From: Saccharicrinis fermentans DSM 9555 = JCM 21142
GTDB lineage: Bacteria > Bacteroidota > Bacteroidia > Bacteroidales > Marinilabiliaceae
NCBI RefSeq assembly: GCF_000517085.1
Contig: NZ_KI912107.1
Location: 1,550,398-1,614,397 of the forward strand
Direction: 5' to 3'
Length of the DNA stretch: 64,000 nucleotides
The notes under the pieces are model-generated. The model ran no database searches. It had not been told where the DNA came from and saw only the letters and a list, made by a program, of their open reading frames with translations. A program made the translations under genes and the position numbers. Below, piece by piece: positions 18,789 through 53,912 of this stretch (positions within the stretch are counted from its first letter, which is position 1; each line of letters opens with the position of its first letter).

Positions 18789-18936
18789 GCAAGAAAACTA
18801 CTGTTTTTTCTGTCGTTGATAAGAAAGTTTCAAAGGCAAGGTTTTCTATTTTTTTGAAACCAAGGAGTTTACTGATTGTAAATGACTGTTTCAAAAATGA
18901 GAATAACGCAGTATTTGGAGTTTTCCTGCGAAGACT
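18789..18936 (+). repeat. Nested inverted-repeat element, copy A
   Basis: A 148-base intergenic element that aligns without gaps to copy C (53765-53912), with about a dozen mismatches by eye, and to the right 107 bases as copy B (21082-21188). The ends form a terminal inverted repeat, GCAAGAAAAC against GTTTTCCTGC (one mismatch). Inside is a perfect TTTTTGAAAC/GTTTCAAAAA stem enclosing TTTAC/GTAAA arms. The left internal hairpin seen in copy C is decayed in this copy. It lies in the 460-base gap between pyrD and the XRE gene, where no gene was found. Confidence 0.85.
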
Positions 18937-19031
18937 GCATACATCACTTACGTTTAACCCGTATGTTATATTATAACCTGATTGATAATAATTTATAATC
19001 GTAATGGATTTTCTAATACATTCTTTAAGGT

Positions 19032-19520
19032 TTAACGATTGGGTCTGTAAGTATCGAAAGTTCCATCGCTATAAAAAAATACAATCCGATCCAATTGCTG
19101 TTGAGATGATGATGGTGGGGTGACTTTTTTTTCATGCTGCATAGAATACGGCGCTCTTTCTTCAGGCTCTGTGGTGACAGGTACATGCTCATCCTTCTCT
19201 ATCACCTTTTCTGGCTTGCTAACTTCACTCTTTTCCTCATTTCTATCTACCTCTTTGTCTTCAAATAGATTTTTAGGAGGAAGCACTGTATTTGCCTTAT
19301 TGTCTTTGTTGTTTCTATACATACTACCTTGTCCCAGCAGTAACCAATCTGGATTAATATGGGGAAATTTTACCAATACCTTTTGTAAAAATTCTAAACT
19401 AGGGTTATTTCTGCCATTGAGTAAATGAGAAATACTGGATCTGTTGACTCCAACAATATCTGCAAATCTGGAAGATACTATTTTTTCGGTAGCCAATAAG
19501 GTTTGTAATCGTTGTTTCAT
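19032..19520 (-). CDS. XRE-family helix-turn-helix regulator
   Basis: A 162-residue DNA-binding protein. The N-terminal HTH_XRE domain (residues 1-70) reads SSRFADIVGVNRSSISHLLNGRNNPSLEFL, followed by a conserved PDWLLLGQGSMY end often seen in Bacteroidota regulators. The remainder is a charged linker rich in Glu/Lys/Pro, ending in a short conserved-looking RIVFFYSDGTFDTYRPNR tail. It acts in the cytoplasm as a repressor or activator with unknown targets. No phage genes accompany it. Gapped palindromes and two TACATTTG boxes upstream suggest autoregulation. Confidence 0.88.
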   Translation of the reverse strand: MKQRLQTLLATEKIVSSRFADIVGVNRSSISHLLNGRNNPSLEFLQKVLVKFPHINPDWLLLGQGSMYRNNKDNKANTVLPPKNLFEDKEVDRNEEKSEVSKPEKVIEKDEHVPVTTEPEERAPYSMQHEKKVTPPSSSQQQLDRIVFFYSDGTFDTYRPNR

Positions 19521-19598
19521 TTCACGTTTAATTGAAATTACAATTGTAAAGATTGGGTGTTGTAAACTTTTGATATCCGCATTCTAGACAAAAGACTA

Positions 19599-19646
19599 TA
19601 TACAAATGTATACAAACCCACTTATCTATTATTTGATACAAATGTA
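19599..19646 (-). promoter_or_regulatory. Candidate promoter/operator of the XRE gene
   Basis: On the minus strand, two TACATTTG boxes (19603-19610 and 19639-19646) match the Bacteroidota -7 consensus. The nearer one is inside a gapped inverted repeat, TATACA-AA-TGTATA (19599-19612). This arrangement would let the encoded HTH protein cover its own promoter. No clear -33 box was found. Confidence 0.4.
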
Positions 19647-20551
19647 ACAACAATTTATAAATTGAGAAACAATATGCATAAATATCTATGTTTCATAAAT
19701 CAATCAATTCTTTACAAAAAGCTATTTGGCTACCCAAGAAGCACTAAGTTTCTTTTATATAATTCAATAATTACTTTAATTAAGGTGATAATATACAACA
19801 AATACAATGTTTTATAAGATATAACACAATCTATTATTCTCCCCTATTCACTCAACCATAAGTGGAGTATATTATTTTTATAAGTGACTTATCTTATTGG
19901 TTATCTGTCTATAAAGCTACTATTTTTTAAATCATTAATTAATACTTTATATAATATATATAATATAATGGTTTATAATTAGTTATACTTATTTATTGGA
20001 CGATATTTAACCTATTACCCAATTGTTGTGCTCATTATAGGGTAATTTATTGTATCTGTAATTTAAGTAAATTGTATAAAATACTAATAATCTGATTTAT
20101 ACATATAATGTATAAATATGTTAACGAAACAATTATTGCATGTGTAATGGATGGTATTATGGGGTGAATAAAAGTTTACAACAAACATTATTTTGTTGCC
20201 TTATCTCATTTTTTGCTTAAATTATAGAAAAGAGAGGTATCCCATAAATGATAAGGAGAGATTATATATCTACTCGATAGTTTACATATGTAATTACAGG
20301 GAAGAAATATGGTTAGCGGAGTATAATTTATCCAATAGATATGGTGTGCTTACATATGTAACTAGCATACAACTGAGTTTTACACCTAATTTAATGGCTA
20401 TCTATGAATATTCACCTAGAGGGATAACTATATCTTCTATTTATCGATCATATGGTGCATTCTAATATGTGCAAGTATCATATCCAGCGTAGATAAATGT
20501 ATTATTTGAAAGAGTACACCAATGCTATTGATAAGAAAACCGTTGATGTTT
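19647..20551. other. AT-rich stretch without recognisable genes
   Basis: About 900 bases of very AT-rich sequence between the XRE promoter and the transposase remnant. The only long open frame (20193-20465, plus) has a composition unlike the genes around it and no recognisable feature. A gapped palindrome TATACAT-ATA-ATGTATA lies at 20098-20114, resembling the one in the XRE promoter. No RNA gene was recognised. Confidence 0.5.
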
Positions 20552-21077
20552 TCAAAACTGGTTACGATGGTATACATAGTCTTCTGGCTGAAACACTAAA
20601 CTTTCTTCTACTGGATTATTATGTATGTAGTTTATCTTCTCATCTATTACTATATTACTCCACCATTCAATAGGCTTGTTATCGTGACGCCAAAACTGAT
20701 AATGCTTTACATTGGATGATTGTTCCCCGCTACCGCACGTGTCCCAACTCCCAACGTGTGGTTTCTATTTAATTACTATCACTCTCTCTTGGGTTCTCTT
20801 GTATAGTTTTAACCAACACTCTACTTGTAAAACGCTTAAAATCACCCAATAGAAGCTCTGGTTTTAATCTATCCGTACTCCTAAATATTAAATGCATATG
20901 ATTACTCATGATACACCAAGCATAAATCTCCATACCTTTATGTTTCTGACAATAGCCTAAATTCTCAAGTAAAATATCTTTGTACTCGTTTCTGGTAAAA
21001 ACATCTAAGCACTCTACGACGGCAAAGCTTACAAAATATACCCCTTCTGGATTATGGAATTTATAATTTCGACTCAT
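20552..21077 (-). pseudogene. Broken REP-associated tyrosine transposase (RAYT)
   Basis: The 5' part (21077 to 20769) encodes 102 residues of a Y1/IS200-like RAYT. It starts MSRNYKFHNPEGVYFVSFAV and carries the metal-binding HUH signature in CIMSNHMHLIFRS (His60, His62). It then runs GDFKRFTSRVLVKTIQENPRES into a stop. In another frame, from about 20720 down to 20552, the family's C-terminal half is still readable: HYQFWRHDNKPIEWWSNIV, then INYIHNNPVEESLVF and QPEDYVY. The stretch between them, where intact relatives have roughly 16-18 residues, is replaced by about 55 bases containing a palindrome. The gene is therefore dead as a transposase. Repeat copy B lies directly upstream. Confidence 0.85.
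20732..20762. repeat. Palindromic insert within the RAYT remnant
   Basis: ACCGCACG and CGTGTGGT pair (one mismatch/wobble) around a 15-base loop rich in C. The stretch is clearly more GC-rich than its surroundings and lies exactly where the two halves of the RAYT reading frame fail to join. REP-like hairpins are the expected substrates of RAYT proteins, but no second copy of this one was noticed in the window. Confidence 0.5.
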
Positions 21078-21081
21078 GAGT

Positions 21082-21188
21082 TCAAAGACAAGGCTTTCGA
21101 TATTTTTGAAACCAAGGAGTTTACTGATGGTAAATGACTGTTTCAAAAATGAGAATAACGCAGTATTTGGAGTTTCCTTGCAAAGACT
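21082..21188 (+). repeat. Nested inverted-repeat element, copy B (right part)
   Basis: A 107-base sequence differing from the right part of copy C at only two positions by eye. It retains the perfect TTTTTGAAAC/GTTTCAAAAA stem with inner TTTAC/GTAAA arms and the right terminal arm. The left 40 bases present in copies A and C are missing. Instead the start codon of the RAYT remnant lies five bases away, on the opposite strand. This is the arrangement expected if A and C are deleted derivatives of a RAYT-bearing element. Confidence 0.85.
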
Positions 21189-21216
21189 AGTTAGTTACCA
21201 TGCACGGCACACCAAA

Positions 21217-21246
21217 AAAAGGCCTTGTGCATACACAAGGCCTTTT
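21217..21246 (-). terminator. Intrinsic terminator after the flavodoxin gene
   Basis: A perfect 13-base stem, AAAAGGCCTTGTG with CACAAGGCCTTTT, around a four-base loop, located 17 bases beyond the flavodoxin stop codon and ending the E2-E1-flavodoxin transcript. Confidence 0.88.
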
Positions 21247-21262
21247 AAAATTTTTCTTACGA

Positions 21263-21769
21263 TTACTTAAATTCCTTTTTGAGTTTTTCCACCCAATTTT
21301 TGATTCTATCATCAGAAAGCGCAGCTTGATTTTCAATATCCAGTGCCAATCCCACAAATTCATTTCCTCGTTGAGCCCTGGAACTTTCAAACTCATATCC
21401 TTCAGTAGAAGTAAATCCTACCACTTTTCCACCTCTTGCTTCAAGAAAATCAGCCATAATACCAATGCCATCTACAAAATTTTCAGAATAGCCTTTTTGA
21501 TCTCCACCTCCATATAATGCAAATGTCTTGCCTTTCAAAGAATCGTCCTCCACTGATGGCAAAAACTCATCCCAGTAGTTAGGCAATTCTCCATCAAACC
21601 AGGTTGGTACCGCTAATATATAATTTGAGAATTCCATAAATTTTTGTTGTGTAGCATCTTCTACATTTACTTTCTCCACATTATCTTCTCCCAATGCTTT
21701 ACACATTTTTTCAGCCTGCTGTCTTGTTTTAACTGAATTAAAACTATAAAATAATCCTATTTTCTTCAT
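21263..21769 (-). CDS. fldA: Flavodoxin, long-chain type
   Basis: A 168-residue FMN-binding electron carrier of the cytoplasm. The N-terminal strand and phosphate-binding loop (KKIGLFYSFNSVKTRQQAEKM) is somewhat divergent from the usual T-G-N-T pattern. Further motifs are ILAVPTWFDGELPNYWDEFLP, with the FMN-stacking Trp, and FALYGGGDQKGYSENFVDGIG. Length and the extra loop fit long-chain flavodoxin FldA, which replaces ferredoxin under iron limitation. It begins 15 bases after the E1 stop codon and is probably the last gene of the E2-E1-fldA operon. Lpd-type complexes do not need flavodoxin, so a functional link is unclear. Confidence 0.9.
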   Translation of the reverse strand: MKKIGLFYSFNSVKTRQQAEKMCKALGEDNVEKVNVEDATQQKFMEFSNYILAVPTWFDGELPNYWDEFLPSVEDDSLKGKTFALYGGGDQKGYSENFVDGIGIMADFLEARGGKVVGFTSTEGYEFESSRAQRGNEFVGLALDIENQAALSDDRIKNWVEKLKKEFK

Positions 21770-21784
21770 AAGTAGTCTGTTTGA

Positions 21785-23833
21785 TTAATAAGCCAATAAT
21801 TCTACTGCTGCATCTTTTATTTTCTGTGTATTAGGTAAGGTCGCAGCCTCTAAAATCCGATTAAAACCCACTGGTGTAAAAGTCGATCCAATACGTTTAA
21901 TCGGAGCATCCAGATACTGAAAACCTACTTCAGCAATTGTTGCAGCGACTTCACCTCCAAAACCACTAAACACTTTATCTTCATGCACAACCATTAATTT
22001 AGATGTCTTTTTAATAGACTCCAATATGGATTCTTTATCCAATGGAATTAATGATCTCAGATCGATTACTTCAATATTACCTTTACCTTCCTTATATAAT
22101 GCATCGGCAGCCTCCACACACATATGTGTGGTGTTTCCATAAGTAACAATGGTCAGGTCTGTTCCTTCGCGTCTTGTCCTTGCCTTACCATAAGGCACTT
22201 CAAATTCTTCTGGAATTGGAGTTGCTGCTTTAGGTGAATTATACAAAGCTTTAGGCTCAAGGAACAATGTCATACCTTCAGAGCGTATAGCCGTACGTAA
22301 TAAGCCCGCTGCATCATCTGCATAGGATGGATATACCACACGCACACCAGGAAAGGTTGTCAATGCACCTTCTATATTTTGTGAGTGATAGAGTCCCCCG
22401 CCTATATAACCTCCAGAAGCTAGTCGTACGGTAATATTAGGAGAATACTGTCCTTTGGTTCGCCAGTACTCATGCGTAGTTTCAACAAACTGTTCCATGG
22501 CTGGCCAAAAATAATCAGCAAATTCTGCCCCCTCCACAACGATACGAATATCTTTGTTAAAACGAGACATTCCGTTGGCAGTACCCATGATATAATCCTC
22601 GGCTATAGGAGCATTAAAAACACGTTGATGTCCAAACTCTTGTTGCATTCCCTTGGACACATTAAAAATACCTCCTTTATCTTTATTGGCCATATCTTGC
22701 CCCCAAATATAGGTATCCGGATTTCTCCGAAACTCTTCTTTTAGGGTACTATTTAAGGCTTCAATCAGTTTTTTGGGGTCACCTTGTTCATTATGTAAAC
22801 CATCGGGATATTTTTGAGGAACATAAGCAGGTGCATAAACAAAATCATAGATACTTTCCGGCGCTGGCTGTGCAGCAGCCAAACCAGCTTTATGGGCTTT
22901 TTTAACTTCTGCTTTTACTTCTTCATCAATCCCATTCAATTCTTCTTCAGTGGCGCGTTCGTACCGAATTAACATTCTTCTGAATTTGGCAATAGGATCA
23001 TATTCTTGCACATAATTTAATTCTGCCTTATCGCGATATAATTCGTGTCTGTCAGAATTAGAGTGTGAATGTATCCGTACACAATTGGCATGAACAATAA
23101 CTGGTTTTTGTTCTTCTGCTGCCCATTTTACAGCCTCTGCCATCGTATTCATAGAATCAAAAACATCCTTACCATTACAATAAAGAATTCTTAGATTTTT
23201 GAGGCCTTCAAAATTATGGGCTACCTTTCTATTAGCTGTCTGGTCTTTCTTTGGTACTGATATTCCATATCCATTATCCTGAAACACAAATACCACTGGC
23301 AGTTGTTCGTTCGAAGCTCCATTAATAGCCTCATATACATATCCTTCTGAAACAGAGGATTCGCCCTGCGAACTAATAGCTACTCCTTTTGATTTATAAT
23401 TTTTAATAGCCCGGGCGATTCCTGTTGCATGCAAGGTATGGTTACCTGTACATGATGAAACATTGTGGATATTCCATGCTGGCTTTGCAAAGTGGTTTGA
23501 CATATGACGACCTCCGCCTGCCACATCCGCATCTTTGGATATACCATTGTAAATAATTTCCTCAGCAGTCATTCCCGCAGAAACACAGGTTTGTAAATCA
23601 CGATAATACGGAAAAAGATGGTCCTTACTCCTATCAAAATTCTGACCGATGGCCAATTGTATAGCATCATGTCCTGCTGCAGGCGCATGGTACGACCAGC
23701 CTATTGCTTGTTTAAGGTAGTTAGGAGCTCTATCATCAAGACTCCTGCCTAACTTTAGCAAGTAGTACCACTTTAACAGTGTATCCTTTTCTGCTGTTTT
23801 TATCTTATATATCTCTTTTACATTTGATTTCAT
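21785..23833 (-). CDS. 2-oxoacid dehydrogenase E1, alpha-beta fusion
   Basis: A 682-residue thiamine-diphosphate decarboxylase in which the alpha and beta subunits are joined in one chain. Alpha part (about 1-330): GHDAIQLAIG, GGGRHMSNHF, the ThDP/Mg motif SSQGESSVSEGYVYEAING with FQDNGYGIS. Beta part (about 345-682): EFRRNPDTYIWGQDM, GMSRFNKDIRIVVEGAEFADYFWP, VRVVYPSYADDAAGLLR and VVHEDKVFSGFGGEVA. It oxidatively decarboxylates a 2-oxoacid and transfers the acyl group to the E2 lipoyl arm. Sequence best suits the branched-chain/2-oxoacid group of Bacteroidota. The precise substrate cannot be read from the sequence. It lies 35 bases after E2 in one operon. Confidence 0.92.
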   Translation of the reverse strand: MKSNVKEIYKIKTAEKDTLLKWYYLLKLGRSLDDRAPNYLKQAIGWSYHAPAAGHDAIQLAIGQNFDRSKDHLFPYYRDLQTCVSAGMTAEEIIYNGISKDADVAGGGRHMSNHFAKPAWNIHNVSSCTGNHTLHATGIARAIKNYKSKGVAISSQGESSVSEGYVYEAINGASNEQLPVVFVFQDNGYGISVPKKDQTANRKVAHNFEGLKNLRILYCNGKDVFDSMNTMAEAVKWAAEEQKPVIVHANCVRIHSHSNSDRHELYRDKAELNYVQEYDPIAKFRRMLIRYERATEEELNGIDEEVKAEVKKAHKAGLAAAQPAPESIYDFVYAPAYVPQKYPDGLHNEQGDPKKLIEALNSTLKEEFRRNPDTYIWGQDMANKDKGGIFNVSKGMQQEFGHQRVFNAPIAEDYIMGTANGMSRFNKDIRIVVEGAEFADYFWPAMEQFVETTHEYWRTKGQYSPNITVRLASGGYIGGGLYHSQNIEGALTTFPGVRVVYPSYADDAAGLLRTAIRSEGMTLFLEPKALYNSPKAATPIPEEFEVPYGKARTRREGTDLTIVTYGNTTHMCVEAADALYKEGKGNIEVIDLRSLIPLDKESILESIKKTSKLMVVHEDKVFSGFGGEVAATIAEVGFQYLDAPIKRIGSTFTPVGFNRILEAATLPNTQKIKDAAVELLAY

Positions 23834-23868
23834 ACTGAATTACTTTTTGTTATACGTCTGTCTGGGAA

Positions 23869-25527
23869 TTAAATTGCTCTATCTATATCAAACTGCTCCA
23901 AGTAATCACCTATTCTACGAAGGAAGTTGCCTCCTAAGGCACCATCAACTATTCGATGATCATACGACAGTGATAAGAACATTTTATGTCTGATACCAAT
24001 TACATCACCTGTTGGTGTTTCAATAACAGCTGGTTTCTTTTCGATTGCTCCTACAGCCAGAATAGCCACTTGAGGTTGATTTATAATGGGTGTACCTATG
24101 ATATTTTTAAATGAACCAAAATTGGTAATGGTAAATGTTCCACCTTGTATATCATCTGGAGAAAGTTTATTGTTTCTAGCCAGACTGGCCATTCTATTCA
24201 CATCAGAGGTTAGTCCCGCTAGATTTTTATGGTCGGCCTGCTTAATCACTGGAACAATAAGGTTACCACTAGGAAGTGCTACTGCCATTCCTATATTTAC
24301 ATTTTTTCGATAGATAATATTCTGACCATCCACCGAGGCATTTACTCCAGGGAAGTCTCGAAGTGCTCTTGCTGTAGCTTCAAAGAAAATAGGTGTAAAT
24401 GTAATTTTCTCACCATATTTATCCAGATATGCTGCTTTACTTTTATTACGCCACAACACAATATTTGTCATGTCTACTTCTATAACTGCAGTTACGTGGG
24501 GTGATACTTGTTTAGACATCACCATATGATCAGCAATTAACTTACGCATACGGTCCATCTCTACTATTTCGTCTTCAGCATTAACTGAAACCGGTGGACG
24601 CTGTATTGCTTCTTTTGCTTTAGGAGCAGAGGAAGCAGCAGGTGAAGATGCAGGTTTACTTGAAGATTTTGCAGGAGAACTTGCATTTCTATTTTTTACA
24701 TAATCTAGAATATCAACTTTGGTAACTCTATTATTTTGCCCGGTTCCTTTTATGGAGTCCAGTTCCTGGACAGAAACACCCTCTGCTTTGGCAATGCTTT
24801 TAACCAATGGCGAATAAAATTTATCAGATGTACTAAAATCTTGTGCTGCAGCAGATACTTGAGATGCACTTTCGACACTTTTCTCAACTTCTTTCACGGC
24901 AGCAGGTTGCGACGTAGCATTTGATGTTCCTTCAGCGCCTTCCATTGTAATTATCGCCACGGCTTTTCCAACTGGAACCAAGGCATCTGTTTCATATAAA
25001 ATTTCACTTACAGTTCCAGCAACAGGAGAAGGAATCTCTGAGTCCACCTTGTCTGTCGCTATCTCCAATAATACATCATCCTCTTCTATTTTATCTCCTA
25101 CCGACACAAACCATTTTGTAATTGTTGCCTCTTCCACACTCTCTCCCATTTTGGGCATAATAATTTCGAATGTGGATGCTACTGTAGCAGATGAATCAGA
25201 TGCTTGTACTTGCGTACCGGCGACTTCTTTCTTCTTGTCTTTAACTTCAACGGCTTCCGTTTTTTCCTCTTCAGCCGAATCACTGCCTTCCAGCTCAATA
25301 ATTGCAACTGCTTTGCCTACGGGTACCAAGGCATCCGTTTCATAAAGTAGTTCTTTAACGATTCCGGTAACCGGAGAAGGAATTTCAGAATCCACTTTAT
25401 CTGTGGCTATTTCCAATAGTACATCATCCTCCTCTATTTTATCTCCTACCGACACGAACCATTTTGTAATTGTTGCTTCCTCAACGCTCTCGCCCATTTT
25501 GGGCATAAGAATTTCAAATGTTGACAT
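23869..25527 (-). CDS. Dihydrolipoyl acyltransferase E2 with two lipoyl domains
   Basis: A 552-residue core subunit of a 2-oxoacid dehydrogenase complex. Two lipoyl domains lie at residues 1-80 and about 118-196, with lipoylation lysines K44 and K160 in TDKVDSEIPSPV. They are nearly identical in protein and very similar in DNA. A peripheral-subunit-binding domain follows (SPLVKSIAKAEGVSVQELDSI), then an Ala/Ser/Pro linker and the catalytic domain ending SLSYDHRIVDGALGG (His524, Asp528). It is the first gene of the operon with E1 and flavodoxin, under the promoter at 25565-25596. No E3 (lpd) gene is present nearby, so E3 must come from elsewhere. Confidence 0.94.
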   Translation of the reverse strand: MSTFEILMPKMGESVEEATITKWFVSVGDKIEEDDVLLEIATDKVDSEIPSPVTGIVKELLYETDALVPVGKAVAIIELEGSDSAEEEKTEAVEVKDKKKEVAGTQVQASDSSATVASTFEIIMPKMGESVEEATITKWFVSVGDKIEEDDVLLEIATDKVDSEIPSPVAGTVSEILYETDALVPVGKAVAIITMEGAEGTSNATSQPAAVKEVEKSVESASQVSAAAQDFSTSDKFYSPLVKSIAKAEGVSVQELDSIKGTGQNNRVTKVDILDYVKNRNASSPAKSSSKPASSPAASSAPKAKEAIQRPPVSVNAEDEIVEMDRMRKLIADHMVMSKQVSPHVTAVIEVDMTNIVLWRNKSKAAYLDKYGEKITFTPIFFEATARALRDFPGVNASVDGQNIIYRKNVNIGMAVALPSGNLIVPVIKQADHKNLAGLTSDVNRMASLARNNKLSPDDIQGGTFTITNFGSFKNIIGTPIINQPQVAILAVGAIEKKPAVIETPTGDVIGIRHKMFLSLSYDHRIVDGALGGNFLRRIGDYLEQFDIDRAI

Positions 25528-25564
25528 ATTGCTTTATTTATATTTGTTCTAAATAAGAATCGGT

Positions 25565-25596
25565 CAAATGTATGTATTGTTTTAATTTGAACCAAA
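25565..25596 (-). promoter_or_regulatory. Promoter of the E2-E1-fldA operon
   Basis: On the minus strand, TTTG (25596-25593), a 20-base spacer and TACATTTG (25572-25565) fit the Bacteroidota -33/-7 consensus closely. Transcription would start near 25558, leaving a leader of about 30 bases before the E2 start codon. This is the best complete promoter match seen in the window. Confidence 0.7.
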
Positions 25597-25915
25597 TCTA
25601 TATAAGTAATGTATTTTGTTTAAGTATTGAAGGAATAATCAAACACTTCTGGTTATCATATAACTTTTTGTTTAGCTTATTCGATACATAAACAAGCAAT
25701 TGTAAAAATGGTTCTAAGATTGTGAAATATCTTTTGAGTAGGATGCTGCTCTATTCCCCAATCGAGCCGGATTTCTTTGTTAGGTCATACCATCCCATTC
25801 AGACAAAGCTATATTAAAGTTAATTATTTTGTTTATCTCTTAACTATAAGGGATTGACAAAATTAAGACATTAAATGAATTGATTTACAAGAAGGTATTC
25901 AGCATAAGTCATTTT

Positions 25916-25955
25916 ACGAATATGTATTGAAACCATAACATACATACATATTCGT
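25916..25955. repeat. Perfect 12-base inverted repeat after the OmpA/PD40 gene
   Basis: ACGAATATGTAT and ATACATATTCGT are perfectly complementary around a 16-base loop, 27 bases past the stop codon of the minus-strand OmpA/PD40 gene. No T-run follows on either strand, so it is not a standard intrinsic terminator. The rest of the 450-base gap up to the E2 start shows only the E2 promoter. Confidence 0.5.
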
Positions 25956-25981
25956 ACTCCAATAAGTTAGTATAAAAAAAA

Positions 25982-27982: not shown

Positions 27983-28181
27983 CTCATGATCAGTTTAACA
28001 TTGCAGGGCATGCGAAGGAATACGCTTATATTATGTATTCTTTGATATCTTGTTTCACACACTCTGTTCTAAGCTAATTTGTTTAAGCAAAAATAGCATA
28101 AAAGACCAAATTCTATCATTGGTTAACGAATATAAATAATGGATAAACGGATTATTTTTTATTTATACGATTATCAAAAAA

Positions 28182-28203: not shown

Positions 28204-28251
28204 AGAATATTTTTTTTGCCAGACAGGCAAATGAAGTATTTTTACACTTTC

Positions 28252-28861: not shown

Positions 28862-29456
28862 TTATTTCTTTAATTGATCTGTAAAGAGCTTTTGAAATTT
28901 TTCAACCTTAGGACCAACAACCATTCTGCAATAACCTTGATTAGGATTATTGGCAAAATACTCTTGGTGATAATCCTCTGCCACAAAAAAGTTTGCAAAA
29001 GCAGTTACTTCTGTAACGATAGGATCCTTATAAAGCTTTTGTTCATTCACCACCTTTATTTGTTCTTCTGCAATACGTTTTTGATCTTCGTTATGATAAA
29101 AAATTACAGAACGATACTGTGTACCAACATCAGCTCCTTGTCTATTCAATGTTGTTGGATCGTGAACCGACCAAAATACGGTCAGCAACTCTCCGAATGA
29201 TATTATATCCGCATCATATGTGATCTGGCACACTTCGGCATGCCCAGTATTGCCATTACACACTTGTTTGTAGCTGGGCTTGTCAACATGTCCCCCCCGA
29301 ATAGCCTGACTCTACCGAAATAACACCTTCTAATTGATCATAAATAGCTTCTACGCACCAAAAACATCCCGCTCCCAGCGTGGCTTTTTCTGTATTTTTT
29401 GCTTCTGAACTCATAAATAAAAATAATCCTATGAAAATTAAAAATAATTCTTTCAT
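28862..29456 (-). pseudogene. msrA: Peptide methionine sulfoxide reductase A, frameshifted
   Basis: MsrA reduces methionine-S-sulfoxide in proteins. From the ATG at 29456 the frame reads a signal peptide ([19 protein letters not shown]), then the catalytic [18 protein letters not shown] and VESGYSGG, and hits a stop. Dropping one base from a run of seven Gs (minus strand; Cs at 29292-29298) restores [20 protein letters not shown]. That frame continues through HDPTTLNRQGADVGTQYRSVIFY and NPNQGYCRMVVGPKVEKF to the stop at 28862. The restored protein would be 197 residues, normal for MsrA, and exported. A real inactivation, a phase-variable tract or a sequencing error would all look like this. 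Confidence 0.9.
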
Positions 29457-29809
29457 GTGTTTATCATTTTTCTCTTAATGGTCAAGTGTTGCTCACTAAA
29501 ATTAATCATATTCCTATATGAGAATTACTTTATCAAGATTTGTTGTATCGCCTATTAAATAACAAACGATTTAATGATTCCCACAAAATTAAGAAAATAC
29601 AATAGTACGCTTTCGTTTAAAAAATTAAAACTTTTTTACTCCTTTTAAACAAACAACTTTATGGACGAAGAGTTCATCGTCTGATAATTCTCTCCCATAT
29701 TCACACAGATATACAACAACAATTTTCCGGAGTTAATATTACATTTAAAGTTGTAAGAAAGAATTGCATGATAATTTTACAAAAGCGTAGACAAATCAGC
29801 ATGTATTAT

Positions 29810-43631: not shown

Positions 43632-43642
43632 ATTTTACACAT

Positions 43643-45683: not shown

Positions 45684-47798
45684 TTATTTATCTTTCTCCT
45701 CCTCATTTTGTTCCGTATTCTTTAATATCCGTTGCATTCCATAGCGCTTAATCACATTATATGCTTTATATAAACCTAGTTCACCAGCCTTACTAAGATC
45801 TAAAGTACCCTGCTCATCATTTTTAAGATAAATTTGTGTCAGACCGCGATTAAAGTATGCTTCTGCAAAGAAAGGATTTAATTCAATTGCTTTGTTAAAG
45901 TTAAGAATCGCTGCCTCATAGTCTTTACGTATACATTGCAAGATACCCAAGTTATAATAAGCAAATTCAAAACCAGGATCTATCTCCAGTACTTTTCGCA
46001 AATCACGTTCAATCAATTGATAATCGAGCATTTGTTTAACAACAGCTCCACTTTTTACCCCATCATCTTTTTTAAGTCCTGCACTTGTATTTTGGCTTAA
46101 CAGATTCACAGGAAGCTCTTCTTCATTAAATTGCTGCATCATTTCAACCATTTTATAACGAATATAAGCGCGGTTAAAATAAGGGAATAAATTAAAGTTT
46201 TCATCCTTACTGTTTTCGATGATATAATCATATTCTCCGATGGCACTTGTGTAATTAAGTACCACTCCATACAATATAGCTCTGGTAAAACGCAAATCAT
46301 TATTATCGGGCGTTTTTTGGAGCTCATCTCCTATTTTTTTAATACTAGTAAAGTATTCTATTTCCTTATCACCATCTGTTTCCGCTTCCCTATTGGAGAA
46401 GATAAGTGGTCTACCGAATTTTATTCGTTGGTTAAACTGAGTCACTTCGGGTTTAAAATACCGTGTTCTATTGATCAAAGAATCCACCGAGAAAAAAGTA
46501 AGGCCATACACCGTTTCCAAGTCAATAATGATATTTCTATTTTGAATTTTACCCCTTAGGTTATCAATTTCTTCCACCTCATTTTCATCAATTCCAAAGT
46601 CATCCAGGACAGCAATTTTGTCATGATTTCTGATGTCATCATCTTTCTCAGCTCTTGTTTCTTTGGGTTTATTGTCTGCCGTATTTCTTTCTGCTTTTTT
46701 ACGATTATCTTGTTCTAACTTATAGGCCATATTATAATCTTTACCGGCTGCAGCACTATTATTTATGCCACTATAAGCCTGTGCTCTAGCCATGTAAGCA
46801 CCTGAATATTCAGGATAATGATCAATAATAAGATTTAAATCGGCGATGGCATCATGATATTCACCAATACGGATATAAAGTAAGGATCTATTAAAAAGTG
46901 TCAACAGGTCGTTGGGGTTTAAAGCCAATACTCTAGAAAAATCGTCAATTGCATTATTTACATCTCCCACTTCTACCCTTAACAATCCGCGGTTCGCATA
47001 AGCCATTGTATTTTTGGGTTCCAGTTCAATCACCTTATCAAAGTCTTGCATGGTACCTGTTAAATTATCCATTTGGTAACGGATAACGCCCCGCATCATA
47101 TAGTAAGAGGCCTCATGACTATCCAATTTAATCGCCTCATTAATACGAGCGATGGCCTTTTCAAAATCATTGATATCGTAATAAATAAAAGCACTAAAGC
47201 GATAAGCATCAGCTACCAGAGGATTCACTTCGATGGCCTCGTCCATATCTTGAACAGCTCCAATAGTATCTTTTAAATTAAGTTTTGAAATAGCCCGATT
47301 AATATAAGCTCCATACTGTGCGTTATCTATTTTTAATACCGATGTAAAATCATCAATACTTTTTTTATAATCTTTTATATTCATATATACCAAGCCCCTA
47401 TTGAAATATATACCTTGGTCTTGTGGACTTATTTCCAATCCTTTGGCATAATCTTCCAAGGCTTTTTCATAAGATCCAAATTTATTTCTGATGTCTGCCC
47501 TAAAACGATAATAACTGGCATGAAAGGGATTTATTTCGATGGCTTTATCCATATCTTTCTCCGCACCCTTGAGGTCATCAAGACTATATTTTGCATATGC
47601 TCTGAAATAATAGGGATCGGCCAGATAAGGTTTTACACGTATTACCTTATTAAAGTATGAAATAGCCAATACGTAATCTTCGTAGTATAAGGCGTTTCTA
47701 CCAATGATCAATACTCGGTCTGTATCTATTTGGGCATAACTACTGGTTGTAACAGCAAATAAAAAGAATATATGAAGCGAAAAAAATATCTTTCTCAT
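45684..47798 (-). CDS. Large exported TPR protein
   Basis: A 704-residue protein with signal peptide MRKIFFSLHIFFLFAVTTSS ending at YAQ. Residues 30-375 hold about ten TPR units (DVAISYFNKVIRVKPYLADPYY-like, KALEDYAKGLEISPQDQGIYF and others). A charged spacer (about 375-420) follows, then a non-TPR segment (IDLETVYGLTFFSVDSLINR), then further TPRs near 600-690. It is probably periplasmic. It sits directly before the TPR-tailed helicase with no gap, although one product is exported and the other cytoplasmic. Confidence 0.88.
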   Translation of the reverse strand: MRKIFFSLHIFFLFAVTTSSYAQIDTDRVLIIGRNALYYEDYVLAISYFNKVIRVKPYLADPYYFRAYAKYSLDDLKGAEKDMDKAIEINPFHASYYRFRADIRNKFGSYEKALEDYAKGLEISPQDQGIYFNRGLVYMNIKDYKKSIDDFTSVLKIDNAQYGAYINRAISKLNLKDTIGAVQDMDEAIEVNPLVADAYRFSAFIYYDINDFEKAIARINEAIKLDSHEASYYMMRGVIRYQMDNLTGTMQDFDKVIELEPKNTMAYANRGLLRVEVGDVNNAIDDFSRVLALNPNDLLTLFNRSLLYIRIGEYHDAIADLNLIIDHYPEYSGAYMARAQAYSGINNSAAAGKDYNMAYKLEQDNRKKAERNTADNKPKETRAEKDDDIRNHDKIAVLDDFGIDENEVEEIDNLRGKIQNRNIIIDLETVYGLTFFSVDSLINRTRYFKPEVTQFNQRIKFGRPLIFSNREAETDGDKEIEYFTSIKKIGDELQKTPDNNDLRFTRAILYGVVLNYTSAIGEYDYIIENSKDENFNLFPYFNRAYIRYKMVEMMQQFNEEELPVNLLSQNTSAGLKKDDGVKSGAVVKQMLDYQLIERDLRKVLEIDPGFEFAYYNLGILQCIRKDYEAAILNFNKAIELNPFFAEAYFNRGLTQIYLKNDEQGTLDLSKAGELGLYKAYNVIKRYGMQRILKNTEQNEEEKDK

Positions 47799-47930
47799 AA
47801 ATAATAACTAGTACGGTAATAAATGAATCTACCCAAATCAATCAGACAAATATAATAAGTTTAAGGGATTCATCTAAAACTGTACCATACTTTCACAAAA
47901 TTAGCAGATAGTTGGGTGTAAATACCCGTG

Positions 47931-48935
47931 TTACTTTTTATTATAAAAGAGTTTTCGTAAAAAAACGGGCTTTTTTTGTACAAAAATCATATTCTCCCTA
48001 TCTACCTCCTTTTCCCCTTTCCATCTATAGGCGCACAACGCCCCCCCACTAGCGATACAAGAATCTACACAACACACATTTTTCCGAGGAGTCATATTTG
48101 TTTTATTCATACAATAATGACCAAAAAACACCAATGGTTTATCTTCGGTATAAGGCTGATAAGGAAAAAGTAACTCTTTAGGAATGGTATAATTAGGTAA
48201 TTTAAATTTATTACCATAACTCAATTTGTAAAAGGTTTTATTTTCAGCTTCCTCCCACCATTTAATTCTAAAGTTACTTCTTCTGTTATTATTTGAATCC
48301 TTTATAATCAAGTCATCGGGCAATTTAAACTCAATACCTTTGGTAGACTTAATAACTGCATTACCAAGCACATGGTTAGGATCGGTCATAAATTTTAAAA
48401 CAGATTTACGGAAGCGTCCTTTGTCTCTATATTGCTCAACTATATCAGCATATTCATCATTCCAATAGGCATGCACTACCTTGAAAGCACCAAAATCCAA
48501 ATGTAAAGGTAAGGTCCTTAACCATTTCACATAGCCCTTCAAGAGTTTTTCTTCACCATAAAACTCTTGTTTTACCTGTTCGATAAGCTTTTTGGATGAG
48601 TCAGAAAGCTTTTTAAAAGGTTTCCCATCTCCATTTTTTGTTAAATAATAGATCGCATTCAACTCATGATTACCCAATACAGCATAGGCAAATCCATACT
48701 CAACCATCCCCCGCACTATTTCCAAAACTTTACGGGAATTTGGTCCTCTGTCGATAAAATCTCCAACAAATATTGCCTTCCGATTTGTATGACGCCAAAC
48801 TCCGTACATTTTTGTATAGTCAAGCTTTAAGAGCAATTCTTCCAATTCATCGGCATTACCGTGAACATCTCCGATTATGTCGTAGAAACAACTTTCTACA
48901 ATTATATTTCTTTTTTCGCCTCTTAGCTGCTCCAA
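47931..48935 (-). CDS. Calcineurin-like metallophosphatase
   Basis: A protein of about 334 residues with the di-metal phosphoesterase motifs DIIGDVHGNADELEELLLKL, FVGDFIDRGPNSRKVLEI, YAVLGNHELNAI and, near the C-terminus, LVFFGHYC. This set matches the ApaH/PrpE/Ser-Thr phosphatase-like group; the substrate is unknown. The open frame reaches 49094, but that would overlap the divergent oxidoreductase gene and lacks a credible start. A TATTTTTG promoter box at 48973-48966 argues for a start after it; the TTG at 48935 is my best guess and is uncertain. A G7 run near the C-terminus (plus-strand Cs at 48041-48047) stays in frame here. Confidence 0.82.
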   Translation of the reverse strand: MEQLRGEKRNIIVESCFYDIIGDVHGNADELEELLLKLDYTKMYGVWRHTNRKAIFVGDFIDRGPNSRKVLEIVRGMVEYGFAYAVLGNHELNAIYYLTKNGDGKPFKKLSDSSKKLIEQVKQEFYGEEKLLKGYVKWLRTLPLHLDFGAFKVVHAYWNDEYADIVEQYRDKGRFRKSVLKFMTDPNHVLGNAVIKSTKGIEFKLPDDLIIKDSNNNRRSNFRIKWWEEAENKTFYKLSYGNKFKLPNYTIPKELLFPYQPYTEDKPLVFFGHYCMNKTNMTPRKNVCCVDSCIASGGALCAYRWKGEKEVDRENMIFVQKKPVFLRKLFYNKK

Positions 48936-48965
48936 AATTCGATATATTTGATGATTGTTAGCGTT

Positions 48966-48973
48966 CAAAAATA
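48966..48973 (-). promoter_or_regulatory. Candidate -7 element for the metallophosphatase gene
   Basis: TATTTTTG on the minus strand fits TAnnTTTG and lies 30 bases before the proposed TTG start. A -33 TTTG exists but at a longer than usual distance. Confidence 0.4.
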
Positions 48974-49007
48974 GGACATTTGAATTTATTATAAAAACAA
49001 AATCTGC

Positions 49008-49982
49008 ATGACAAAAATAATTAATTGGGGAATCATAGGTTGCGGCGATGTTACAGAGAAAAAAAGCGGACCTGCATTTAATAAAGTTGACCACTCTAAA
49101 TTAATAGCGGTCATGAGGCGTAATTTACTAAAAGCCAAGGATTATGCGCTACGACACCATGTCCCCTATTATTACAACGACGCAGCCTCTTTAATAGCAT
49201 CTCCCGAAGTGGATGCCATATATATTGCTACCCCACCCTCTACCCATGCCTATTATGCAATTCAAGCTATGATGGCCGGAAAACCCGTATATGTTGAAAA
49301 ACCGATGGCCTCTTCATATAAAGAGTGTCAGGAAATGAATCGTGTTTCAAAGGAAACAGGCGTTCCGCTATTTGTTGCCTACTACAGGAGAACACTACCA
49401 GGCTTTTTAAAAGTAAAAGAACTAATTGAAAGTGACAGTATTGGTAAACCACTGGCGGTTAACATCCGACTAACCCGCCCCGCCAATATTGATGAGCAAA
49501 ATAAAGGCTGGAGAGTTGATAGATCCATTGCAGGTGGTGGTATTTTTCATGATCTGGCATCACATCAATTTGATTTTCTGGATTTTCTTTTTGGACCTAT
49601 CGTAGAGGCTCAAGGATGCTCATCCAATAACAACCATTGGTATGAAGTTGAAGATACGGTAAGTGCCTGCTATAAATTTTCTAATGGCTTAGTAGGAAAC
49701 GGACTTTGGAGTTTTGTGGCAGCCAACGAAGCCAAAGAGGATACCATGGAAATAATAGGATCAAATGGAGTGGTCAAATTTAGCGGTTTTGATCACCAAG
49801 CCATTGAGCTCCATACACAAGGAGGAGTACTTGAATTCCCCTATCTAAATCCTGAAAACATACAATATAATTTGATAAAGCAAGTTACAGAGAGCCTACT
49901 TTTTGGAAAAGACTGTGTCAGTACAGGACTAAGCGCTGCACGAACCAATAAAATACTAGAAGAAATTACACGCAATGGATAA
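49008..49982 (+). CDS. Gfo/Idh/MocA-family oxidoreductase
   Basis: A 324-residue NAD(P)-dependent oxidoreductase. The N-terminal Rossmann fold has INWGIIGCGDVTEKKSGPAF, and the family signature VYVEKPMASSYKEC contains the catalytic-site E-K-P. The C-terminal domain shows GGGIFHDLASHQFDFLDFLFG with the His used in catalysis and DTVSACYKFSNGLVGNGLWSF. It probably oxidises or reduces a sugar or inositol-like substrate in the cytoplasm; the exact substrate cannot be told. It is alone, divergent from the metallophosphatase gene. Confidence 0.9.
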   Translation: MTKIINWGIIGCGDVTEKKSGPAFNKVDHSKLIAVMRRNLLKAKDYALRHHVPYYYNDAASLIASPEVDAIYIATPPSTHAYYAIQAMMAGKPVYVEKPMASSYKECQEMNRVSKETGVPLFVAYYRRTLPGFLKVKELIESDSIGKPLAVNIRLTRPANIDEQNKGWRVDRSIAGGGIFHDLASHQFDFLDFLFGPIVEAQGCSSNNNHWYEVEDTVSACYKFSNGLVGNGLWSFVAANEAKEDTMEIIGSNGVVKFSGFDHQAIELHTQGGVLEFPYLNPENIQYNLIKQVTESLLFGKDCVSTGLSAARTNKILEEITRNG

Positions 49983-50099
49983 TACATATAAAATAATTAT
50001 GGTCATTACCTTATTTATTTACTATCTTGCGCAAAGAAAAAAAAGTTTGCAAATAGTACACCTCTCTAATTATTTATTGCGAACTATTAAAGTCTCAAA

Positions 50100-53000
50100 A
50101 TGAATTTAAAATTAGACATTATATTATTACTGACACTTTCAATAGCTCCACAGTTATTGATTTCGCAAAATATTCCTTATCAAGGAACGCCATATATTGA
50201 AAATTTCAACCCTAACAGTCAAAATACAAGAGGACAAATTTTAACAATAGCTCAAGACCAAAGAGGGATAATGTATTTTGGAGGAAAAAATGGTTTGTAT
50301 GAATTTGATGGAGCAAGCTGGAGAAACTATCCCATTTCTAACAAAACATCTATTAAATCGTTGGCCATAGATTCTTTAGGTATTATTTATGCAGGAGGAA
50401 ACAATGACTTTGGTGTTTTTATGCCAAACGCAACAGGTTCACTTGAATACCACTCTCTATATCTACCTGCACCTAAAGGTGCTCCATTTTTTCAAAGTAT
50501 CATGAAAACCTTTATTACCGATCAAGGTGTCTACTTCATTTCAAAAAAAAGAATTTTCAGATACAAAAACAATTCAATAGAAGTCATACATGTTAACTTA
50601 CAAGCCCCATGTGCATTTTTCGTGAATGGAACCATTTATGTAAAAGATTTAGCAAAAGGACTTTGTAAAATTGATGAAACGCAAATAATTCCATTAGAAG
50701 GTTGTGAAGAATTCAATGCTTTGACCAAAAGCTATTTTTTCATTAATTCATACTCCGATAACGAATTATTGTTTTCCTTAATTAAGGAAAATTTATTTTT
50801 CACTTATAATACAGTAAGCCATGTATTAAAACCTTTTACAATTTCAGATGATACCAAAAGGTATCTCGAAGAAAACTTTCAATTTACCAGCACCCAAACG
50901 GCCAGAGGTGATTTTGCGATAGGCACTGCTAAAGGTGGTATTTTATTAATGAACAAAAAGGGAGAAACAATCAGGATCATTAACACCAACAGAGGCCTCT
51001 CTACTAATCTTATTTACTCTGTATTTTCTGATGCAGAAGACAATCTTTGGGCTTCCTCCTTCAAGGGTGTATCTCGCATTGACATTAGTCATCCCGCCAT
51101 TTTTTACAATAAAAATCAAGGGCTTGAGTCCAATGTTGTATGCTCAAAGTACCATAACAACACACAATATATTGGAACAAACACAAATTTTTACTACTTG
51201 CCTGAGCATAATTTTAGTGTATCAAATGATAATCATGTTATAAAACGCATCAAGCCCCCCCCATGAACCAAATCAAATTTTTGATGTAAATGGGCATTTA
51301 TTGGTAGCCAATTGGTATGGTGTTGATGAAGTAATCAAAGATAAAGTAAATCACTTTTACAGAGGGTTAAGAGTATTTTGTGCCGCCTATGATAAGCAAT
51401 ATCCTAACAAGATAGCATTGGGACAAAAACTGGCAGTTGTAATCTGTTCATTTAAAGAAACAGATTCTGGTAGGTACCTGCAACTAACCGACACTTTGAA
51501 TATTCAGAATAATAATATTAGTCAGATTGTATCCATGGCATTTGATAAAGATGGCAATTTATGGTTAGCTTCCTATAATGAAGGGATATTTCTGATTCGA
51601 TTCAAAGATAAGGATCTAAAAGAATATCAAATCACGCGCTTCACCGAAAAAAATGGTTTACCAAAAGAAATACAAGAACCATTTATAACCAATTTTAATC
51701 AAAAAATAAATATTGGCACACAAAAGGGAATATACAAAGTGGTATTACCCCCTATGGGCGGCTCTGATTCACTCATTCATTTTACACATGACAGTTTTTG
51801 GGGTGACACATTTACCAAGGATTCAAGTGCTGTTAGCATGATCAAACAAATTGATAGCACTTCTTATTTTATTACTGGGAATAAAACAGGGGTATTGAGT
51901 GTTGACAATAACAAAGCGTATTTTGACTGGAAACCGTTTTTAAAACTAGGAGCCATCAGCTCTATTTCGGTAGAAAATAAAAGATATTTAAACATCGGAC
52001 AATTTGAATCCTTTTGCATATTTGATCGGCAAATCGAAAAAGATTACAATCGCCCATTCAATGTACTTATACGTAAAGTGGTTATTTCTTCCAATGATTC
52101 TCTTTTATTTGATGGAACTTTTTTCAAAAAGGAAGAGCATAAGATATTTAATAGCCAACCCCAAACATTAGTACCAACTTTGGATAACAAATACAACTCC
52201 CTAAAGATAAATTTTAGCGCTTGCTATTTCGAATCTTCCTCCCAAAACCAATATAGCTATATGATGGAAGGTTTCGATAACGATTGGAGCCCTTGGTCTT
52301 CAGAACCGTCAGCAGTTTATACAAATATTCCGCATGGCAAACTAAAATTTAAAGTAAAGGCAAAAAATGTATTTGGTACAATTAGCAATATCGAAACCTA
52401 TTCATTTATTGTTAAGCCGGCATGGTATCAAACCAAATGGGCCTATATCTCATATTGCTTACTTAGTATATTAATCATTGCACTTATCACTAAATTGTAC
52501 AGTCATCATTTGATGATAAAAAATATGAGATTAGAAACCGTAGTCAAAAAACGAACACATGAGTTGGAAGAAACGATTGAAAAATTAAAAGAAACCCAAT
52601 CAACTTTAATTCAGCAGGAAAAAATGGCTTCCCTTGGTATTCTCACGGCCGGTGTGGCACATGAAATTAACAATCCTTTAAATTATATTTTAGGAGGATA
52701 TACAGGGCTTGATTTTTATTTTCAGGAAAATAAAATTGAAGATGAAGATGTTCAATTACTAATGGATAGCATTAAAACAGGCGTTGACAGGGCTGCCGAT
52801 ATTGTATCAGGATTGAATCAGTTTAGCAGAACTCAAAATACTTTCGATGAAAAATGCGATCTTCATTCCATATTAGACAATAGTATATTAATGATCAAGC
52901 ACTTGCTCAAAAACCGCATTGAGATGGTGAAAAACTACACCGCAGAATCGTCTATTGTTTCAGGAAATGTAGGAAAACTGCATCAGGTATTTATCAATAT

Positions 53001-53310
53001 TCTTACCAATGCATGTCAAGCTATAAAAAAAGATGGTATAATAACTGTTACCACAACAACACTTGATCAATCATTAATCATCGAAATTAAAGACAATGGT
53101 GAAGGGATACAAAGTGATATTTTAGATAAAATTACAGATCCGTTTTTCACCACTAAAGAACCAGGTCAAGGATCAGGACTTGGTTTATCCATCACCTATC
53201 GAATAATTGAAGAACACAAAGGAAAATTACAGTTTAAATCAGAATTAAAGAAAGGCACTACAGCTATTATAACATTACCACTAATTCCCACAAAAAATGC
53301 CAAAAATTAA
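50100..53310 (+). pseudogene. Reg_prop/Y_Y_Y sensor histidine kinase split at a C8 run
   Basis: Restored by removing one C from the eight Cs at 51255-51262, this is one kinase of about 1069 residues. A signal peptide (MNLKLDIILLLTLSIAPQLLISQ) leads into a periplasmic two-propeller sensor of Reg_prop type (GIMYFGGKNGLYEFDGASWRN, GNLWLASYNEGIFLIRF). Then come a Y_Y_Y domain (YSYMMEGFDNDWSPWSSEPS), a membrane helix (AYISYCLLSILIIALI), HisKA (KMASLGILTAGVAHEINNPLN, His autophosphorylated) and HATPase (FINILTNACQAI, DNGEGI, FFTTKEPGQGSGLGLS). As given, the first frame stops after IKPPP at 51266, and the second opens at 51301. No output domain is fused; the response regulator is the next gene. Confidence 0.9.
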
Positions 53311-53665
53311 GATTTTATACATAGACGATGAAGATATTAATCTTCGATTATTTAAAATTAATTTGGAAAAAAAATACCAAATTTTCACTGCACAAAACGG
53401 TGTACAAGGCTTAGAAATTTTAGCCCAAGAGAGTGATATACAAATTGTGGTTAGCGATATGAGAATGCCATATATGAATGGAGAGGAATTCATAAGTAAA
53501 GCCAAAGAAATATACCCGAATATCGTTTATTATATTTTGTCAGGCTTTGATATCACTGATAAAATTCAAGAGTTTATAGAAAAAGGAACCATAAAAAAGC
53601 ACTTCAGAAAGCCATTTAACTTAAAAGAAATAGGTTTAGAATTGGAAAAAGCAGTATCGCATTAA
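53297..53665 (+). CDS. Single-domain response regulator
   Basis: A 122-residue CheY-like receiver. Acidic pocket ILYIDDEDIN (Asp10, Asp11), phospho-acceptor Asp54 in VVSDMRMPYMNGEEF, and the conserved Lys in KKHFRKPFNL. There is no output domain, so it must act through a protein partner or relay phosphate. It overlaps the kinase stop by 14 bases, which marks the pair as cognate and translationally coupled. If the kinase frameshift is real, expression of this gene may also be affected. Confidence 0.92.
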   Translation: MPKIKILYIDDEDINLRLFKINLEKKYQIFTAQNGVQGLEILAQESDIQIVVSDMRMPYMNGEEFISKAKEIYPNIVYYILSGFDITDKIQEFIEKGTIKKHFRKPFNLKEIGLELEKAVSH

Positions 53666-53764
53666 AGGGATTTCTCCTATCAAGAAACCCCTCTCGCATA
53701 TTCTATTAGCTAAAAAAACTGTTTGTTTAAATAAAGTATGAATATTATTCAGTAATTAGTGGCT

Positions 53765-53912
53765 GCAAGAAAACGACTGTTTTTTCTGTCTTTGATAAGA
53801 AAGCATCAAAGACAAGGCTTTCGATATTTTTGAAACCAAGGAGTTTACTGATGGTAAATGACTGTTTCAAAATTGAGAATAACGCAGTATTTGGAGTTTT
53901 CTTGCAAAGACT
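53765..53912 (+). repeat. Nested inverted-repeat element, copy C (best preserved)
   Basis: A 148-base element with TGCAAGAAAAC (53764-53774) and GTTTTCTTGCA (53896-53906) as perfect 11-base terminal inverted repeats. Inside are two hairpins: GTCTTTGAT/ATCAAAGAC (53788-53796, 53805-53813) and TTTTGAAAC/GTTTCAAAA (53828-53836, 53864-53872), the latter enclosing TTTAC/GTAAA. Folded, this gives a branched cruciform. It fills most of the gap between the response regulator and ald. Homologous copies are at 18789-18936 and 21082-21188. Confidence 0.88.

Follow-up and report, generated by a model that had tools for sequence, protein, structure and literature searches.

A MITE family with ISNCY-like ends in Saccharicrinis fermentans and a putatively mobile module at start codons

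A 64,000-nucleotide stretch of the Saccharicrinis fermentans DSM 9555 = JCM 21142 genome (contig NZ_KI912107.1, positions 1,550,398 to 1,614,397 of the forward strand; here called the window) holds three copies, A, B and C, of one repeat. They are copies of a single non-autonomous DNA transposon, a miniature inverted-repeat transposable element (MITE). Copy B adjoins a broken gene for a REP-associated tyrosine transposase (RAYT). Some copies elsewhere in the genome are longer and carry a second element of about 100 bp, which we call the start-codon module. The three copies in the window are as follows.

18777 to 18941, plus strand: copy A, a diverged copy; MITE at 18783-18935 between TACATA (18777-18782) and TGCATA (18936-18941)
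21082 to 21193, plus strand: copy B, the right 106 bp of the MITE (to 21187) with one flanking hexamer, TAGTTA (21188-21193), and no left arm
53753 to 53917, plus strand: copy C, the full 153-bp MITE at 53759-53911 between exact TAATTA duplications (53753-53758 and 53912-53917)

Results

Three copies of one repeat in the window

A preliminary description of this DNA gave about 12 differences in 148 bases between A and C, and 2 in 107 between B and the right part of C; recounting confirms both, at 12 and 2. The right-end pattern matches the window four times, against 0.02 matches expected from shuffles. The true ends were placed by aligning copies from across the genome together with their flanks, and they lie a few bases outside those first reported. 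The element is real, and the unit is slightly longer than described, at 153 bp in each of A and C. The terminal inverted repeats of C are likewise present, with a perfect stretch of 10 bp (GCAAGAAAAC) rather than 11; over the true ends, 13 of 16 bp match. Another copy (L013) bears GTCTTTGCAAGAAAAC at both ends. The hexamers that flank A form a duplication with one mismatch.

The branched fold proposed for C is better than that of shuffled sequence (DNA z = -3.89; 0 of 200 shuffles as good), and the RNA fold of the other strand gives z = -3.55. No frame of at least 100 aa is listed in copy C. An 11-base match to the left part of the repeat, noted at 20528-20538, proved to be at chance level, with 27 of 109 other window segments of the same size sharing an 11-mer with C.

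A family of at least 80 two-ended copies

The MITE unit (GTGGCTGCAAGAAAAC...GTTTTCTTGCAAAGAC) has 16-bp imperfect inverted ends and two internal hairpins, and lies between 6-bp TANNTA duplications. A genome-wide search showed that it is not confined to the three loci; copy numbers for the genome are lower bounds throughout. An initial search gave at least 40 copies at 95-100% identity among the matches listed. Allowing up to 3 mismatches, the right-end pattern occurs at 174 places, a count that includes left ends, which are 3 mismatches away. The left-end pattern, with up to 2 mismatches, occurs at 94, and reversed-pattern controls for the two ends gave 0 and 0. Ends were paired by script in stretches around the pattern matches (for right ends, the places among the matches listed). 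The 88 resulting pairs comprise 80 two-ended MITEs, 6 insertion sequences and 2 pairs (641 and 172 bp) set aside as wrong pairings; 35 ends were left unpaired.

Among the 80 two-ended MITEs, 64 measure 150-156 bp, eight 254-255 bp, two 344-345 bp and six 38-100 bp. Read by eye, the short forms point to internal direct repeats (GACTGTTT for a 68-bp form, CAGT for a 54-bp form and GGAGTTT for a 100-bp form), and these copies probably arose by deletion between such repeats.

The flanking duplications were counted in 38 copies chosen by similarity alone (one shorter row and a plasmid copy were left out). The 6-bp duplication is exact in 30 of them and has at most one mismatch in 36, and TANNTA stands on both sides in 35. 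When left and right hexamers were paired at random in 2000 runs, a mean of 5.1 and a maximum of 13 were exact, against the 30 seen. In all 80 pairs, which were selected partly by the TANNTA pattern itself, the duplications show no mismatch in 59, one in 17 and two in 4. Terminal inverted repeats, 6-bp duplications, high copy number and the lack of a transposase gene together bear out the earlier suggestion of a MITE. A conserved structured RNA with a fixed genomic context does not fit. Of the 55 copies with at least 300 bp of flank on each side, 53 are intergenic at unrelated sites and interrupt no frame of 100 aa or more.

Some copies have unusual surroundings. Inverted repeats of at least 8 bp enclose 4 of 81 MITE copies, against 0.38 in shuffles, and at one locus (L019, G000:C3:4989468) the MITE sits within the loop of a terminator-like 18-bp inverted repeat. 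At another (L009, G000:C3:3220000-3227500), three tandem copies of a 370-aa frame recur with a period of 1591 bp, each followed by a MITE at the same place. The MITE is matched in 8 of the 9 genus genomes, own included. Hairpin 2 of one relative's copy (L034, about 1590-1795, G005:C45) holds a different insert, of about 190 bp, which is bounded by 8-bp duplications (ATTGTAAA) and has, by eye, inverted ends; it may be another MITE nested in this one.

Resident ISNCY elements as the likely enzyme source

The six insertion sequences (ISs) found by end pairing have the ends GTCTCGGCAAGAAAAC/GTTTTCTTGCAAGGAC and lie between TANNTA duplications, identical in five and with one mismatch in the sixth. 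Five measure 1841-1842 bp and one, internally deleted, 1122 bp. The product of the 1.8-kb element scores 406.8 bits with NCBIfam NF033593, against a cut-off of 325, and is by this profile a DDE transposase of the ISNCY family. An open 513-aa frame is found at three of seven transposase places, two of the three on the 50-kb contig C4. A programmed frameshift in this gene, suspected from one copy (L040), was rejected on the evidence of these three copies, each with one open frame.

The MITE ends match those of the resident ISNCY elements (L040, L041, L044, L046), differing at a few of 16 positions and identical over the inner 10 bp. One hybrid copy (C3:3042446) joins a MITE interior to an IS-type right end. 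Given the shared ends, the TANNTA duplications and this hybrid, mobilisation of the MITE in trans by the ISNCY transposase appears to be the best explanation.

Several observations weigh against it. MITE and IS are alike at their ends only, with unrelated interiors, and the left ends, GTGGCT in the MITE and GTCTCG in the IS, are several positions apart. Seven loci in relatives were inspected, and only three had paired ends (up to 4 mismatches), one of them (L034) with an exact TANNTA duplication. Two of the genome's four RAYT remnants also have a MITE no more than about 100 bp away (copy B and C3:4747483), a point taken up below. The differences in left end and interior would suit a different, unseen DDE transposase with similar ends, an explanation that we regard as improbable. 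No other gene-bearing element with GTGGCTGCAAG/CTTGCAAAGAC-type ends occurs among the 88 pairs, the long unpaired ends having been inspected within the fetched stretches only; and TANNTA, the inner 10 bp and one hybrid end are common to MITE and IS.

A module at start codons, carried by some MITEs

Ten of the 80 MITE copies, those of 254-255 and 344-345 bp, carry one or two modules. All ten inserts lie at one point, AAGAAA/GC, in the loop of hairpin 1. The 153-bp form GATAAGAAA/GCTTC becomes GATAAGAAA[CGAAC...CATATGAAA]GCTTC; two of the copies have a second unit behind the first. The module would thus be a passenger, inserted once and then spread by the MITE.

The same insert was found at no fewer than 43 places in the S. 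fermentans genome among the matches listed, with 264 first-look candidates. At 20 module loci that were fetched, units stand at gene starts, single or in tandem, and the terminal ATGAAA starts the next reading frame. We compiled 175 units, 26 from this genome, 15 from genus relatives and 134 from named genomes. The terminal ATG opens a frame of at least 60 codons in 125 of them; 22 lead into another unit, 25 open no frame of that length and 3 are cut. ATGAAA sites in the MITE loci were counted in the same way, and 74 of 313 lead into a frame of this length. Units not chosen by the pattern for stem P3 (described below) have AAA as their second codon in 68 of 74 cases, against 7 of 41 for window frames of at least 150 aa.

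On the left, GAAA precedes 174 of 178 units, and ATGAAA 162 of 178; 21 further units without a CGANC start are not in the GAAA count. This border, together with the filled and empty sites given below, fits a single-strand insertion like that of IS200/IS605 elements, and a 4-bp GAAA duplication fits equally well. A third sequence type (ATGAAACTGGCATGG...), not covered by our covariance model R1, also stands at gene starts, at L164, L166, L185 and in one unit of the window. By eye, GC-rich palindromes (such as CTGCCCCGACCCTTCGGGG) are inserted within some relatives' modules (L151, L159, L161 and others).

The window itself contains four units. Names of the downstream genes were read from the sequence.

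60270 to 60370, minus strand: start-codon module, CGAGC type, upstream of a ferrochelatase-like gene; R1 57.1 bits, E 1.9e-8
60169 to 60275, minus strand: second unit, third type (ATGAAACTGGCATGG...TATATGAAA); its ATG at 60174-60172 starts the gene 59170-60174; found by eye, not by R1
29451 to 29548, minus strand: diverged start-codon module; R1 40.9 bits, E 1.8e-5; its terminal ATGAAA starts an MsrA-like frame
1 to 56, plus strand: 3' part of a module cut by the window edge; R1 31.4 bits, E 0.0011; the ATG at 51-53 (ATGAAT) starts a TonB-dependent-receptor-like protein

The MsrA-like frame (28862-29455, minus strand) breaks after 56 codons beside a G run and may be a pseudogene or reflect a sequencing error.

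Modules are matched in all 9 genus genomes and, with R1, in 48 of the 149 genomes sampled from the order; S. fermentans itself is included in both counts. With an E threshold of 0.01, R1 gives 26 matches in 243,788 bases of the S. fermentans genome, roughly half of which lie within MITEs. We estimate a few hundred modules in this genome, a rough figure since the sampled stretches were chosen around MITEs. The exact pattern occurs in at least 120 stretches of named genomes, among them Carboxylicivirga, Labilibacter, Labilibaculum, Plebeiobacterium, Natronoflexus, Geofilum, Saccharicrinis, Prolixibacteraceae and others. Single cases come from records titled Melioribacteraceae, Cyclobacteriaceae, Flavobacteriaceae, Chitinophaga and Niabella. 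Exact patterns for the module or the MITE gave no match in the viral contigs searched, and blastn with a 345-bp copy gave none in plasmids or phages. Searches of open-licence papers gave no description of the start-codon module.

Pair counts place the start codon in a covarying hairpin

Structure was counted on an alignment (A2) of 55 units not chosen by the P3 pattern, with three named stems, P1, P2 and P3. Rows from named genomes were excluded from the P3 counts, as the search pattern fixes part of that stem. The named structure was derived from the tested sequences, so that some advantage over slid versions is expected; it pairs 81.2% of cells, against at most 47.1% for slid versions and 71.7% for shuffled ones. 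Its covariation score is 0.237, against at most 0.114 slid and 0.094 shuffled. In P3, a CANNTG 35-40 bases upstream pairs with the hexamer that contains the start codon, with about 93% of cells paired. The central pair of this stem is AU in 30 units, GC in 10 and CG in 7. Among 47 units that were not chosen by the P3 pattern and open 60 codons, the start hexamer is fully complementary in 38, with four different pairs. P1 and P2 are weaker, with 73.5% and 71.4% of cells paired. RNAalifold on A2 gave no structure (energy 0), which counts against a strong common fold.

No match to Rfam 15 at curated score was found in the window, MITE and module included, or in 15 module loci. A lax Rfam search of one 345-bp copy returned only rliE, at E 3.6.

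Filled and empty sites

At coaD, two units (102.9 and 27.1 bits) stand at the gene start in one genus genome (G008); the closely related G007 is without a unit there. The empty site reads TTATTAGAGTATATGAAACGTATTGC in G007 and the filled one TTTTTAGAGTGTATGAAA[two units]CGTATCGC in G008. In the other seven genus genomes, six give no match at E 1, and S. fermentans (G000) gives a weak, decayed one (29.2 bits) that lies away from the start codon, about 108 bp upstream of the gene. At lpxB, units are found in G002 (88.8 and 34.4 bits), in G004 (94.8) and, decayed, in G006 (26.7); there are none in the other six genus genomes, and the upstream neighbour is the same where it can be aligned. With the MITE, coaD and lpxB bring to three the sites at which the module is present or absent with precise borders.

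These sites bear on a different view of the module, in which it is an immobile, inherited cis-regulatory RNA, such as a riboswitch or attenuator, kept at certain genes. Covarying stems are what such an RNA would have, and its position at gene starts in 125 of 175 units would be natural. Its distribution is harder to reconcile. The lpxB unit is present in 3 of 9 genus genomes and the coaD-start unit in 1 of 9, near-identical copies stand at many unrelated genes of one genome, and the downstream genes look functionally unrelated by eye. The module also lies within the MITE, away from gene starts. We judge this view to be improbable.

Also improbable is a conserved leader peptide (MKRAMRxxSHxGE) encoded by the module and acting by translational attenuation. 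Many CGAGCC-type units of the S. fermentans genome do open with ATGAAACGAGCCATG and stop after 13 codons, as read by eye. The two other unit types, however, do not encode the peptide. In named genomes the length of the corresponding stretch varies, by eye, between 41, 42 and 43 nt, so that no common frame is preserved, and the candidate was dropped.

The RAYT neighbourhood of copy B

Two features beside copy B bear on the origin of the MITE.

20571 to 21077, minus strand: RAYT pseudogene in two frames; neighbour of copy B, outside the MITE
20729 to 20760, strand not assigned: REP-like palindrome near the RAYT 3' end; by eye it resembles the palindromes flanking a relative's intact RAYT (L336) and is unlike the MITE

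The preliminary description had copy B, with no left arm, directly abutting the start of a RAYT gene. The adjacency stands, since 4 bases separate the truncated end of B from the ATG at 21075-21077, and the gene is real but broken. It matches Pfam Y1_Tnp (E 9e-9) over profile positions 20-87 of 121 and NCBIfam REP_Tyr_transpos at 51.3 bits, under the cut-off of 80. In a tblastn search with an intact relative as query, residues 1-99 and 71-164 of 184 are matched, in different frames.

The origin drawn from this adjacency, by which A and C would be deletion derivatives of a RAYT-bearing element, is not upheld. The matching ends and duplications belong to ISNCY elements, and RAYT remnants are few and partial. 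To examine a RAYT origin, Y1_Tnp places were collected in the S. fermentans genome and related ones, with 31 loci used for modules (29 in a looser motif scan), and were searched for MITE ends. The S. fermentans genome has four such places, all partial or degraded and two with internal stops, against its 80 or more MITE copies; none is an intact RAYT gene, and the two with a MITE nearby have it on one side only. In relatives, a search of 27 RAYT loci gave no MITE end bordered by TANNTA, and three of these loci hold look-alikes with 3 mismatches and no TANNTA. RAYT loci read by eye (12 and 7) are flanked by palindromes other than the MITE.

At the second remnant, C3:4747483, the MITE lies about 60 bp beyond the RAYT sequence and not within it. 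The two MITE neighbours sit at opposite ends of their remnants, and for this reason we take the neighbourhood to be, probably, chance in intergenic scrap. Significant start-codon modules occur in 3 of the 31 RAYT loci (L333, L038, L320) and at no RAYT start, a rate that in a rough comparison resembles other DNA of the S. fermentans genome, with no enrichment. At a separate locus (L179, G000:C3:4736000-4737300), a RAYT fragment (residues 12-47 of a relative) runs in frame into a start-codon module.

Single-strand insertion by HUH enzymes is not known to make 6-bp target duplications. A REPIN-like element or MITE mobilised by RAYT, with copy B as the relic of its parent, is highly improbable, for although copy B abuts the RAYT start codon and a second MITE lies near another remnant, the 6-bp duplications, the few and partial Y1_Tnp places and the absence of MITE ends from relatives' RAYT loci, which by eye carry other palindromes, all speak against it.

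Discussion

Very probably, then, the repeat is a MITE family moved by ISNCY transposase, copy B is a truncated member that stands beside the RAYT pseudogene by chance, and the longer copies carry an independent mobile module. In the mechanism that we propose, the ISNCY transposase would recognise the shared ends and move the MITE in trans, by cut and paste or by copying, into TANNTA sites between genes. One such MITE, later truncated, would have given copy B, adjoining the RAYT pseudogene by chance.

The module itself is most readily explained as an independent mobile repeat that also rides in MITEs; no transposase was found for it. It would insert 3' of GAAA, either as a single strand in the manner of IS200/IS605 elements, with GAAA as the right border, or with a 4-bp GAAA duplication. 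At an ATGAAA start, the gene would keep a start codon from the module's own 3' ATGAAA. Insertions inside genes would break the gene and be lost. The module may be tolerated mainly at ATGAAA starts because its 3' end supplies a fresh ATGAAA. The new start is paired in P3, which makes an effect on translation plausible. Bacteroidota are largely independent of Shine-Dalgarno pairing.

The MITE belongs to a known kind, and the passenger is the surprise. We think it likely, with less confidence than for the MITE family, that the modules form a widespread class of structured mobile elements of about 95 nt in Bacteroidales. Such elements would insert 3' of (ATG)AAA and leave a replacement ATGAAA at their 3' end, with the start codon paired in a short hairpin whose loop is AT-rich. 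Since each end renews the target, they would stack in tandem. The richest species would have an estimated few hundred in each genome, perhaps retuning the translation of hundreds of genes, and the elements could also ride in MITEs.

By keeping the host gene alive through a new start codon, such a module could colonise essential-looking genes (lpxB, coaD, the ferrochelatase-like gene). If this is true, it provides a natural, genome-wide experiment on start-codon structure and translation in Bacteroidota, and the start codons and 5' regions of many such genomes need to be read again. It also raises a testable question, namely which enzyme could move a 95-nt element with such a target.

Comparison with known systems

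The closest known relatives of the MITE are the ISNCY insertion sequences (NF033593) of the same genome, which share its inner 10-bp ends and its 6-bp TANNTA duplications; its interior, with two hairpins, is unrelated to theirs. In the parts of the open literature that we consulted, no ISNCY-linked MITE family of Bacteroidetes was found. RAYT/REP systems are represented in the same genomes by palindromic repeats near Y1 transposase genes. The MITE differs from them in having 6-bp duplications, and its link to RAYT consists of two neighbours only. REPs are described as 20-40 bp long (PMC3733652); the start-codon module is longer.

BrickBuilt, from Porphyromonas gingivalis (PMC4596501), is likewise a MITE of Bacteroidetes; its internal repeats vary, and its ends resemble those of resident ISs. 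Its ends match the IS5-family ISPg, there are 19 copies per strain, and its duplications vary in length. Its internal repeat is a minisatellite, whereas the one described here appears to be a repeat that is mobile in its own right. BOX elements of Streptococcus pneumoniae (PMC3049150) have 0, 1 or several internal hairpin modules between fixed end modules. The likeness lies in this modular build; in the present case the internal module also stands alone at start codons across an order of Bacteroidota.

Two further systems resemble the module in its position. The TAACTGA repeats of Beggiatoaceae (PMC4679880), also present in some Bacteroidetes, are many short repeats directly upstream of start codons. 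They are heptamer direct repeats, without a structured, start-supplying insertion like the module. Rickettsia palindromic elements (reviewed in PMC10969869) are small palindromic mobile elements tolerated in or at genes. Those elements lie in frame within open reading frames, whereas the module described here sits at the start codon and appears to renew it.

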